Below, piece by piece: positions 16,594-20,210 of a stretch of 20,210 bases of DNA (its first letter is position 1; each line of letters starts with the position of its first letter). Made by a program: the position numbers and the translations under genes. Under the pieces are notes generated by a model. That model had not been told where the DNA came from. It was given only the letters and a program-made list of their open reading frames with translations, and did no database searches. Origin of the DNA: a virus; IMG/VR virus record IMGVR_UViG_3300037827_000030, positions 1-20,210 of that record. The stretch is one strand, 5' to 3'.

Positions 16594-16775
16594 TACGCGT
16601 CTCTCCTATTTCTTCGGTAAAGTTTATCATACATAGATCGTCGATCATTCGCATCAGCCCCGTTCAAATGGTTACGATAAGCATTTTCAAGCTGACGATC
16701 ATTTAACTTATAGGTTTTTTTAAGTTCTGCGGGCTTTGCTTCTTGGAAATCATTCCATGTAGGTTGCTTGCTCAT
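16593..16775 (-). CDS. Hypothetical 60-aa protein downstream of portal
   Basis: A short helical, charged protein (WNDFQEAKPAELKKTYKLND, then QLENAYRNHL and a basic end KLYRRNRRDA). The start overlaps the portal stop by ATGA, and the stop overlaps the next start by one base. The gene is therefore embedded in a strictly coupled operon. No family recognised; the basic C-terminus could bind DNA. Confidence 0.65.
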   Translation of the reverse strand: MSKQPTWNDFQEAKPAELKKTYKLNDRQLENAYRNHLNGADANDRRSMYDKLYRRNRRDA

Positions 16776-18916
16776 GTTCTCGCTCCTTGAGATTCACTAG
16801 GTTGACTGATTTTGTGATGCAATTCAATCCCTTTGTGATGCGTTTCTATACTTTCTTTTACATGGCGGTGACCCATATCCATATGCTTCAATTGCAGATC
16901 GACTTGCTTGCCAAAACGCTCTGTCTGCGCCTTGACAAGTTCAACAGAATCTTCATCCTCAGACATTTTAAGTTCAGCCATAATCTTTTTCTCTTTAAGT
17001 TCAAGATCTTTCATATCAACTTGGAATTCTCGTTGATTTTTCATTTCATCTTGTTGCAGTTTCTTCATATCAACCTGTACTTTTAACATGGCGGGATTAT
17101 TCTGCATTTCAGCTTGTTGAGCCTGCATTGCCATTTGTTTCTGCTGTTGCATCTCTTGCAGCCATCCATCAACCATTGTCTTAAGCTGCTCGATACCACG
17201 TCCTTCCATATTGTCTAGAACGAAGTTTAAACCCTTTTCTGCAATAAACTGTGCAAATAGAGGTGACATACCCATCATCTCTTTGACCATCATAATAGTA
17301 CGTGACTTCTGCACTTGGAACGATGCACCTGCCTTCACAGCAATATTAAGTTCATTCGTATCAAAATCCATGTCCATACCATCTTTCTGGTTGATCTTAA
17401 TAAACGTCTTTTTCCCCTCAGCATCCATCAAGGGTAAGGTACGAGGAGTTGTATAATATTTAGGCATTAGATCCACATAGATTTGCGCCGCACGCTGATA
17501 GCCTTGCAGATAACCTACGATATAGGGCATTGCGGTTGCATTAGACTGGCTTGCAGCCTCAACCAAGGCAATACCACTCAATTGGTTGTTATTGATCCCT
17601 AAAGCTGCGTCATAGCTTCCTAATACGTTTTGTATAAGCTGGTCAGATCCCGTGAACGCATTGATAATCTCAGGCGGACATGGGATGCGTTGCACCTCAC
17701 GTATAGGGTTTGAAATAGGTAGATCAGGATTCTGTTCATGCACTGAGTTGTAGACTAAGACATTCGCTTTCTGCACATCCTTATAAGCGGATAGAAACTC
17801 CTCCTCTTTAGGGAGCGCCTCTTTAGCAACCATAAACTTATGCTGTACGGTATTTTCAATCTCATTCGCCAAAGCAATGCCTGAGTAGTTCTTAAGGCGT
17901 TGCGCACCTTTTGCATGGTAAACATAAGGTCGTGTCACTTGCCTTACATTGCCGTTCTTTGGCGTTTTAATCATGACTGAATGGCCATCCACAAATATCA
18001 ATGGCAGCATGGTAAAGTCAGTTGCTTCATGGTCGATGATCTGGTTTTCAATGAGTCTGTATCGGTCGATACTTTCAATCATGGTTTTGCGAGGCTTTCC
18101 AATCATGGCGGGAGGCGCTGCTAAGTCGCCCCATGTTTTTAGCATCTTATCGTACTTATCCTTGGTCATGACTTGAGGAGGTGCGCCCTGCTCACCTCTC
18201 ACTTGTACGATTGTTTTCTCCTTGATCTTTTTCTCGTAATACTCAGCTACCATCACAATGGGTGTTGCATCATTCAGATATGACCAATTAAATCCCGCAA
18301 AATCCCGTCTAAAGTTTAGGTTTTCAATAGATATCTCTGGGAATTCGTCCTCAAAATCTTCTTTGGCCTTTGGATACAATTCAAAGCAGAATCGCCCATC
18401 CCCTTTATGTGAGTAACGTGCTAGCTGATCAAACCCGCATAATGTCGGATCAAAGACACGCTCAATGTTAATGACTTGATGGAAGCTCATCGGCTTTGCA
18501 TAGTCAGTGGACATTTTAAGCGAGCTAAAACCTCCAGATAGTAAGTCTTTATAGACTTCATATTTAGTGTGATGATTATTCGAATCAAGCAAGACATGAC
18601 GCAAGTGCTGCTCTACAACCTTAATAGTCATAGGATCAGCCGTAGTCTGATCATCAGCATTCACCTCGATATCAGGCTCTTGCTTTGAGAACTCACCCAA
18701 TAAGCGTGATATATATGCCTCAAGCACGTTAAACTCAAGCTGAGGTCGTCCAAGCGTCATTAAAAGAGTAATATCATCTTCTTTTAAAGATGCCTCAAAG
18801 ACAAACCGTCTGAACTCGTTATAACGGTCATAATTGGGTTTAAAATAGTCGTATGCGCGCCGTACATTAGTTTTAATACGGTCGAGTTGATCCTGGTGCC
18901 TTTTTGCCACTTCCAT
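16772..18916 (-). CDS. Portal protein, P22 gp1-like
   Basis: A 714-aa protein, nearly the length of the P22 portal (725 aa). Residues 58-89 (PQLEFNVLEAYISRLLGEFSKQEPDIEV) correspond to the N-terminal 'wing' helix region. GGFSSLKMSTDYA (128-140) precedes the conserved segment with DPTLCGFD, and GDGRFCFELYPKAKEDFEDEFP (172-193) matches the 'ARHC...SMSQNGWEDFAEKY' stretch of P22 portal. PIVMVAEYYEKK then parallels 'IQIAEFYEVVEKK'. The last 120 residues (about 595-714) are Gln/Met/Lys-rich coiled coil, like the C-terminal barrel. Portals of this family form a 12-subunit ring at one capsid vertex and measure DNA filling. The gene has a 308-base leader holding pentamer arrays, and its SD lies in a 9-bp palindromic hairpin. 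Confidence 0.88.
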   Translation of the reverse strand: MEVAKRHQDQLDRIKTNVRRAYDYFKPNYDRYNEFRRFVFEASLKEDDITLLMTLGRPQLEFNVLEAYISRLLGEFSKQEPDIEVNADDQTTADPMTIKVVEQHLRHVLLDSNNHHTKYEVYKDLLSGGFSSLKMSTDYAKPMSFHQVINIERVFDPTLCGFDQLARYSHKGDGRFCFELYPKAKEDFEDEFPEISIENLNFRRDFAGFNWSYLNDATPIVMVAEYYEKKIKEKTIVQVRGEQGAPPQVMTKDKYDKMLKTWGDLAAPPAMIGKPRKTMIESIDRYRLIENQIIDHEATDFTMLPLIFVDGHSVMIKTPKNGNVRQVTRPYVYHAKGAQRLKNYSGIALANEIENTVQHKFMVAKEALPKEEEFLSAYKDVQKANVLVYNSVHEQNPDLPISNPIREVQRIPCPPEIINAFTGSDQLIQNVLGSYDAALGINNNQLSGIALVEAASQSNATAMPYIVGYLQGYQRAAQIYVDLMPKYYTTPRTLPLMDAEGKKTFIKINQKDGMDMDFDTNELNIAVKAGASFQVQKSRTIMMVKEMMGMSPLFAQFIAEKGLNFVLDNMEGRGIEQLKTMVDGWLQEMQQQKQMAMQAQQAEMQNNPAMLKVQVDMKKLQQDEMKNQREFQVDMKDLELKEKKIMAELKMSEDEDSVELVKAQTERFGKQVDLQLKHMDMGHRHVKESIETHHKGIELHHKISQPSESQGART

Positions 18917-18937
18917 AACTGAAATCCTTTTCAGTTA
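18916..18937 (-). promoter_or_regulatory. Perfect palindromic hairpin holding the portal SD in its loop
   Basis: Minus strand: TAACTGAAA, loop AGGA, TTTCAGTTA. The nine base pairs are perfect, the loop is the Shine-Dalgarno core, and the last A is the first base of the portal ATG. The stem would occlude the start codon while displaying the SD, so folding could limit portal translation. As DNA it is also a possible operator. Confidence 0.6.
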
Positions 18938-18949
18938 AAATTAGTAATT

Positions 18950-19218
18950 CTTTCCTTACCTTACCTTACAAAACTTTTAAACGCATTACATTACACTACA
19001 CTACTAAATCATTTTAATAATACTATCATCCGTGCCTTACAGTTCTTTACACCACATTACACCACGGAGCCACACTTTAGAATATTTAATAAAACCTTAC
19101 TTTTCATCTCTAAACGCCACTTGACAAAACAACACATAAGTAGACACCACAATACACGATAGTTAACCCTTACTTTTCTTTTCCATACATGACAATTCAA
19201 CGCATCACTGCACATGAC
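18950..19218. repeat. Pentamer arrays NNNAC (GTNNN on minus), four blocks, portal leader
   Basis: This non-coding stretch between portal and the gene at 19225 consists of phased five-base units ending in AC on the plus strand. Block 1 spans 18955-19004 (10 units; 8 end in AC, 9 in C; a C-ending unit also precedes at 18950). Block 2 spans 19031-19075 (9 units, all end in C). Block 3 spans 19091-19155 (13 units, 10 in AC, 12 in C). Block 4 spans 19169-19218 (10 units, all end in C). AT-rich spacers at 19005-19030, 19076-19090 and 19156-19168 separate the blocks and reset the phase. The other three bases vary freely. The minus strand is therefore G/T-rich and C-poor. No ORF of protein-like sequence is present. 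Confidence 0.85.
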
Positions 19219-19224
19219 ACAAAT

Positions 19225-19773
19225 CTAGTCTTTTCTTTCTTCCCAATTTGTTACAACAAATCGGCCATATATACCTTTCCGTGCTGGCCTAAAATCCCCT
19301 AACCCGACTTTACTTCCTGCATCATCGACTAAAGTTCTTATGAATTTAGGACTAAACATTTTCAAATCTACAGATAAAGTAAATTCTATGCTCCACTCAT
19401 CTAATCTAGGACGATGACAGACAATACGTCCACCAGTAGAAGGAACAACTACAGCTCGGCTATCAACTTCCCAAGTCGAAGGAGTTTTAAAATAGACTAT
19501 CTCATTTTCAATCATAACACCTGCTGGAATAAGAGATGATCTTGCAGTTGTTACCTTAACTTTACCATCTTTATGAAACTTTCCAGCTTCAATTAAACAA
19601 GCATAAATATTTGTAGTGGGATAATAAAGTCTTTCTTTCTCATCAATATAGCATACTTTCTGTGCTGCTTCTCGAGGTGTAATATCTTTGTCTTTTTTTA
19701 GCTTTTGTTCATCAATGTTAAATCTATTCATCAATAATGGTGTTATTCCTGTTATCTCAATATCCAATTTCAT
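19225..19773 (-). CDS. Conserved phage protein of unknown function (TPLLM...GLGDFRP...GRF family)
   Basis: A 182-aa protein with a pattern I know from a common phage family of unknown function. The parts are: N-terminal strand IEITGITPLLMNRF (residues 5-18); a TPREAAQK helix; YYPTTNIYACLIEAGKF (55-65 region); SSLIPAGVMI; a W-x-V-D-x-R-x-V-V-x-P segment; CHRPRLDEWSIEFTLSVD; and the ending VGLGDFRPARKGIYGRFVV. The layout (N-terminal strand, C-terminal Gly-rich loop followed by a strand) is loosely like a RAMP/Cas7-type RNA-binding fold, but I cannot show that. AAGGA lies about 7 bases upstream. It is flanked on both sides by the pentamer arrays, and the stop codon (TAG, 19225-19227) lies just beyond block 4, so it may be the protein that uses them. 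That last point is speculative. Confidence 0.7.
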   Translation of the reverse strand: MKLDIEITGITPLLMNRFNIDEQKLKKDKDITPREAAQKVCYIDEKERLYYPTTNIYACLIEAGKFHKDGKVKVTTARSSLIPAGVMIENEIVYFKTPSTWEVDSRAVVVPSTGGRIVCHRPRLDEWSIEFTLSVDLKMFSPKFIRTLVDDAGSKVGLGDFRPARKGIYGRFVVTNWEERKD

Positions 19774-19790
19774 AGTTATCCTTAGATTAA

Positions 19791-20015
19791 TTCACGCTAC
19801 AATGCACTACATTACTGGACTTCACTCCATATAAATCATTAAAATCCTTACCAAACTTTACAGTACGCCACCCGACACAACGCGACATCACACAACTTCA
19901 CAAGACAGTAACTTTTAATATTCAAAATCCTTACATTACAGATCTTTTCTGTACCCAACACAACAGTGCTTTACAATACGTTACAAAACACCATAAATTT
20001 AATATATCACACAAC
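19791..20015. repeat. Pentamer arrays NNNAC (GTNNN on minus), second group
   Basis: The gap upstream of the gene at 19773 has the same design. Block 5 spans 19791-19825 (7 units, all end in C, 6 in AC). Block 6 spans 19847-19906 (12 consecutive units, all end in AC). Block 7 spans 19925-19989 (13 units, all end in C, 9 in AC). A short remnant follows at 20006-20015 (2 units). Spacers at 19826-19846, 19907-19924 and 19990-20005 are AT-rich with TTTAATAT-like or TAAATCATT cores. On the minus strand blocks 6 and 7 end in GTAAGGATTTT. No gene is visible in 19774-20037. Confidence 0.88.
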
Positions 20016-20037
20016 TATTTAACGCCTATACAAATAT

Positions 20038-20210
20038 TTAATTTCTATATGCTGATTTCCTCAATCTATCCACTTGGTGAAATCCTTTCATCAAGTCTCT
20101 AGCCACATGATTATAATTAACAGGATTCACTTCCTTGCCTATTATAATCTTATCAATCAATGCCATTTTAACAGCGTCATAACAAGTATCTGCAATGTCA
20201 TCAAACCGAT
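20038..20210 (-). CDS. C-terminal fragment of an upstream gene, possible resolvase/nuclease
   Basis: The frame is open from the window edge to TAA at 20038-20040 and gives 56 complete residues. The piece begins RFDDIADTCYDAVKMALIDK and ends in a basic DRLRKSAYRN tail. An acidic helix 'F-D-D-I-A-D-x(3)-D-A' near the C-terminus is typical of RNase H-fold enzymes such as poxvirus A22/RuvC-like Holliday junction resolvases ('KKDD.AD.L'), whose last catalytic Asp sits there. Terminase nuclease domains are another option. The N-terminal catalytic residues are outside the window, so the call is tentative. Confidence 0.4.
   Translation of the reverse strand, partial: RFDDIADTCYDAVKMALIDKIIIGKEVNPVNYNHVARDLMKGFHQVDRLRKSAYRN

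Follow-up and report, generated by a model that had tools for sequence, protein, structure and literature searches.

What are the regular five-base arrays that surround a small gene next to the head genes of this phage? The question concerns a viral sequence of 20,210 nucleotides (IMG/VR record IMGVR_UViG_3300037827_000030), which was analysed at its full length and is called the window here. Its main genes lie on the minus strand, and the head genes are those for portal, scaffold, major head protein and head closure. The arrays flank an open reading frame of 182 amino acids (19225-19773, minus strand), in the interval that separates the end of the terminase gene from the portal gene. The downstream edge is the portal protein gene (16772-18916, minus strand), assigned to PHROG 156. 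The upstream edge is the 3' end of the terminase large subunit gene terL (20041-20210, minus strand), which aligns with the terL end of three related phages (L200, L126 and L127), the terL of L200 belonging to PHROG 38.

Read on the gene strand, both non-coding stretches that flank the 182-aa gene consist of GTNNN units of five bases. The first-pass annotation had written them mainly as NNNAC on the plus strand; the coding and array strand is the minus strand, and its alternative minus-strand form is the unit used here. The annotation had considered the pattern real and non-random, and the lag-5 autocorrelation that it proposed confirmed this. On the plus strand, 20 AC pairs at lag 5 were found in 18917-19224 (z = 6.6) and 22 in 19774-20045 (z = 8.3), compared with 500 dinucleotide shuffles. 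Additional peaks occurred at lags 10, 15 and 20, with troughs at 4, 6, 9 and 14. The top 12-unit phase score was 9/12 in the first region and 12/12 in the second, values reached by 0 of 5000 shuffles in either. An exact run of 12 NNNAC units, already counted by eye in the sixth of seven blocks, spans 19847-19906, and the longest run in 5000 shuffles was 6. Downstream, unbroken runs reach at most 5 units, a length also attained in 61 of 5000 shuffles, and the evidence there therefore lies in the phase and not in the run length. The array pattern is thus real and not an artefact. A coding explanation was rejected, as the list of open reading frames holds none of at least 60 aa across the arrays. 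A simple tandem repeat or microsatellite was also rejected, in line with the earlier reading, because the units are diverse.

The gene between the arrays encodes Vipr, a relative of the CRISPR RAMP proteins (Cas7/Csm3-like; PHROG 4652). A tblastn search with the 182-aa protein gave matches in 124 phage records, including Felixounavirus kin of Escherichia phage SUSP1, and SUSP1 Vipr matched with 25-28% identity over 95% of the length. The alignment with SUSP1 agp039 is full-length (blastp among five proteins, E about 5e-14). A profile built solely from the protein's own clade found PDB entry 36pp, 'SUSP1 Vipr protein', with E = 1.6e-8. Modelling from 9 close sequences gave a pLDDT of 56; the AlphaFold (AF2) model from an alignment of 56 viral relatives is confident, with a pLDDT of 92. 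In Foldseek, the top matches of this model were all Csm3/Cas7-type RAMPs (E about 1e-6, probability 1.0), and the best solved structures were Csm3/Cas7-type subunits of CRISPR type III and type VII complexes and Cas7-11. Searches against Rfam, PADLOC and NCBIfam gave no match, and the Pfam search gave a single one, far below its cut-off. No host was found; the sole genome match, with a Vipr 55% identical, is a rumen Desulfovibrio MAG.

According to the accessible text of a 2026 preprint, VIPR is a CRISPR-related system with which phages silence rival phages (PMC13142463). It relies on phage-borne RAMP proteins and on guide RNAs of 9-16 pentamers with a fixed GGY and a variable NN, and it targets double-stranded DNA with one base skipped per unit. 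Seven types are distinguished, and the experiments described concern few systems, with GGY/NN guides. The SUSP1 system is of type II, and the tail of its guide RNA (vrRNA) forms a pseudoknot (PMC13142463). Among the papers searched, this preprint was the only one found that treats VIPR. The five-base arrays of the window are almost certainly vrRNA genes of such a system, in a TGT-NN (loosely GT-NNN) variant. The first-pass annotation had supposed a probably undescribed element; as far as the accessible text goes, the kind has already been described (PMC13142463).

The comparison with this system is close in most respects. The protein is a RAMP homologue of about 20 kDa, and terminase, portal and capsid genes surround the locus, as for a phage- or provirus-encoded system. 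The window shares with SUSP1 a homologous Vipr flanked on either side by vrRNA arrays, pentamers with fixed and hypervariable positions, and a constant 3' end. Six of the seven arrays have 10-12 units including those of the handle, and one has 7; array length and a size of about 100 nt fit what the accessible preprint text gives (PMC13142463). Three differences count against the assignment. The pentamers follow a related consensus, (T/A/G)GT/NN, and not the strict GGY/NN of SUSP1, the first G being replaced by T, A or G. The vap gene, an accessory gene typical but not universal in VIPR, is absent, and the only gene among the arrays between terL and portal is vipr. The handle is short and unstructured, without the SUSP1-type fold (no stable fold in the vrRNA tails, z-scores -0.4 to 1.2). 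The window also departs from SUSP1 in its 3+4 vrRNAs, which are densely packed, and in their place between terL and portal. As for class 1 CRISPR-Cas, its RAMPs (Csm3/Cas7) share the fold of the Vipr model and the periodic binding of subunits along a guide RNA. In contrast, the window holds a lone RAMP with about 10-14% identity to them, and neither CRISPR repeats in a repeat-spacer array nor a cas operon.

Parsing of the minus strand gave seven arrays with 77 units, very close to the 74 units that the annotation had counted over its seven blocks (on the plus strand, 72 with a final C and 57 with a final AC). G is the first base in 97% of the units and GT in 75%, the latter figure also counting against VIPR. 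Upstream of vipr, vrRNA 1 (19910-19989) has the 12 units GTTTT GTAAC GTATT GTAAA GCACT GTTGT GTTGG GTACA GAAAA GATCT GTAAT GTAAG, followed by the tail GATTTTGAATATTAAAAG. vrRNA 2 (19828-19906), which contains the run of 12, has GTCTT GTGAA GTTGT GTGAT GTCGC GTTGT GTCGG GTGGC GTACT GTAAA GTTTG GTAAG and the tail GATTTTAATGATTTATAT. The shortest, vrRNA 3 (19774-19825), has the 7 units GTGAA GTCCA GTAAT GTAGT GCATT GTAGC GTGAA, then TTAATCTAAGGATAACT. Downstream of vipr, vrRNA 4 (19158-19218) has 10 units, the last being GAAAA GAAAA GTAAG, then GGTTAACTATC. vrRNA 5 (19081-19155) has the 12 units GTATT GTGGT GTCTA CTTAT GTGTT GTTTT GTCAA GTGGC GTTTA GAGAT GAAAA GTAAG, then GTTTTATTAAATATT. vrRNA 6 (19026-19075) reads GTGTG GCTCC GTGGT GTAAT GTGGT GTAAA GAACT GTAAG GCACG GATGA and has a degenerate 3' end. 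vrRNA 7 (18950-19004) reads GTAGT GTAGT GTAAT GTAAT GCGTT TAAAA GTTTT GTAAG GTAAG GTAAG GAAAG. As read from the sequence, 19996-20034 on the same strand, GTATA GGC GTTAA ATA GTTGT GTGAT ATATTAAATTTAT, may be what is left of an eighth array.

A constant 3' handle, GTAAGG(R)TTTTTAAT, had 49 matches across the window's clade. In the window itself, it is clear in vrRNAs 1, 2 and 5 and weaker in the others. The likely vipr ribosome binding site, AAGGAT, overlaps CTAAGGAT, the handle-like end of vrRNA 3 (19774-19790), and the same layout is seen in clade members. This overlap may reflect a self-regulation of vipr.

The link between arrays and vipr was examined from both sides. Among 80 viral Vipr relatives, nearly all had 5-mer arrays beside vipr (GGCNN, GGTNN and, in the window's clade, TGTNN/NGTNN), and the same scan recovered the GGYNN arrays of SUSP1 next to its vipr. 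Conversely, among 73 contigs picked solely for a diverse (GTNNN)10 array, at least 47 had a Vipr homologue, a lower bound because vipr can lie outside the stretch examined. The other 26 loci (e.g., L017 and L115) carry diverse pentamer arrays with no Vipr match on the stretch examined and may be other types or fragments. In nine Vipr-positive GTGNN loci (L029, L033, L068, L071, L086, L088, L101, L111 and L123), the first listed array lies opposite the vipr strand in 9/9. GTCNN and GTTNN dialects are also present among the array-bearing loci.

The first-pass annotation had held that only the dinucleotide and the spacing are kept. As a description of the pattern this stands, except that the fifth base is not fully free (in the window, T in 49% of the units, C rare). 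In 728 guide units of the clade, positions 1 (G) and 2 (T) are fixed, and base 5 is T in about 62%, A in 19%, G in 11% and C in 8%. This fifth base stands where GGY has its first G. Loci with TGT-type repeats group in a monophyletic clade (support 100/99), and sister loci are intermediate: L247 and L249 retain G-Y with a mixed fifth base, and in the arrays of L250 (2559-4510) only G and Y are fixed, the other three bases being free, with 0.03 bits at base 5. The locus thus shows a repeat code evolving, with GGY, NGY and TGT within one Vipr branch. Relative to GGY, the fixed part is reduced to GY/GT in the window, and in the near relative L250 the fifth base varies as freely as the guide bases. 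Such RNAs could read three bases per unit, a change of the guide code in this branch that we consider improbable. If true, the target would be contiguous, unlike in published VIPRs and nearer to CRISPR. The locus is a compact natural set for testing the fixed-base requirements of Vipr and the way in which the NN bases are read.

Comparison of related phages showed that the locus is mobile. In two portal relatives (L126 and L127, 91-94% identity), terL and portal are directly adjacent and the site is empty. Among 80 portal relatives, almost none has a comparable array upstream of portal: L200 has one at the same site as the window, L135 has one 5 kb upstream of portal, and a weaker signal upstream of portal in L194 is a simple repeat. 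Absence of the pattern from the same place in related phages had been named beforehand as an argument against it; most portal relatives do lack it there, but only since the arrays move as part of a cassette acquired by horizontal transfer. Two further phages (L206 and L207) carry a Vipr 85-87% identical in the same terL-portal gap. Their terL belongs to another family (PHROG 2 versus 38, no BLAST match), and their portal is 22% identical. This is most simply explained by a transfer of the cassette among phages that are only distantly related, with insertion into the same gap. The locus shows that one small gene and its arrays can travel as a cassette between unrelated phages without an accessory gene. 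The locus is explained in kind by VIPR; its repeat code and its cassette form are new relative to the accessible preprint text (PMC13142463).

The empty site also bears on the proposal that a multimeric protein binds the arrays as double-stranded DNA, with the arrays serving as a ruler, a centromere or a packaging site. The strict 5-bp phasing would suit such a site, as would the terL-portal position, near which packaging signals are often found. The site is empty in close relatives, however, and is thus not needed for packaging. Moreover, a RAMP, the subunit of RNA-guided complexes, sits between the arrays, these are discrete units with a common 3' handle, and a 5-bp step drifts against the 10.5-bp helix. 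This explanation is extremely unlikely. The ruler-like multimer site of the first-pass annotation had the right geometry in spirit, with one subunit per five bases, but the evidence favours an RNA, the vrRNA, bound by the neighbouring Vipr instead of a DNA site.

Two observations were made beside these comparisons. A strong hairpin, AACTGAAA-AGGA-TTTCAGTT (18914-18938, z = -3.0), has the ribosome binding site of portal in its loop; the hairpin is also present in L200 and missing from L126 and L127, both without the cassette. In L207, a lone CRISPR repeat (GTCGCGCTCTTCACGAGCGCGTGGATTGAAAC), which we take to resemble type I-C, lies at 2755-2788 inside a VIPR array, in the downstream vrRNA arrays; no second copy of its core was found in the sequences examined, including most of the L207 phage contig.

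The window very probably holds a stand-alone VIPR locus of a podovirus-like phage, with Vipr, a minimal RAMP protein, and seven guide RNAs that would silence rivals. The function of the locus is most likely that of VIPR, and the following steps are inferred by analogy with the published system. Transcription of the arrays, on the vipr strand, would yield seven short guide RNAs that each consist of about 7-12 GT(NN)N units and the 3' handle. Vipr would coat the transcript through the fixed GT, one copy per five nucleotides, and present the variable NN bases. Through gapped pairing, with one base skipped per two read, the complex would then attach to the double-stranded DNA of rival phages or of satellites and silence their genes. 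The varying bases are most likely guide information and not filler.

One subunit per five nucleotides of RNA is also the spacing of the TRAP RNA-binding ring, which recognises NAG repeats every 5 nt. The proteins are unrelated, and to our knowledge TRAP repeats carry no variable guide information. A TRAP-like regulator acting on translation or the transcript, in which Vipr would bind the GT repeats and control expression of vipr or portal, would share this geometry, and the overlap of the vipr ribosome binding site with the end of vrRNA 3 would fit it. This is nonetheless very unlikely: the NN bases differ among members at the same site, the guides of the window lying no nearer to other loci than shuffled ones do, and the homologue that has been characterised is, in the accessible preprint text, a guide complex that targets DNA (PMC13142463). 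Alternatively, VIPR could be real by descent with its function lost in the window's phage. The downstream units that deviate (GA and CT starts), the 7-unit array and the possible remnant point in this direction. Such decay is unlikely, as vipr is intact at 182 aa, with 76-87% identity among the eight closest relatives and an invariant glycine-rich C-terminal motif, and the G is retained in 97% of the units.

Targets of the VIPR guides were searched for as well. For the window's clade, the 1-nt-skip rule gave no target in about 3.9 Mb of mostly related phage DNA, which counts against VIPR, and skips of 0-4 and other unit readings gave nothing above controls with reversed unit order. Exact IMG/VR scans with four window guides matched 24, 0, 13 and 11 contigs; these matches extended no further than expected by chance, had no consistent wobble alignment and look like chance. 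Window triplets read contiguously had no match in cultured phages. GGY control guides showed an excess at skip 1 (13 matches at E<0.1 versus 3, 3 and 1, including near-copies), which supports the search method. A suggestive candidate for a guide-target match was seen between the sister loci: under a 1-nt skip, 12 units of the array at 3560 of L249 match 711-750 of L247 at 21 of 24 bases, with a score that alone is not above controls. L247 is a related phage, and the matched segment codes for the Walker A region in its homologous ATPase gene. The match keeps the reading frame, the skipped base falling on the third codon position, while base 5 does not track the skipped base (3 of 12). Near-perfect skip-1 matches were also found for two GGY guides (L263 2895 with L256 313, and L289 2706 with L213 1839), one within the vipr gene of another phage and one in an LESphi2 region near regulators.
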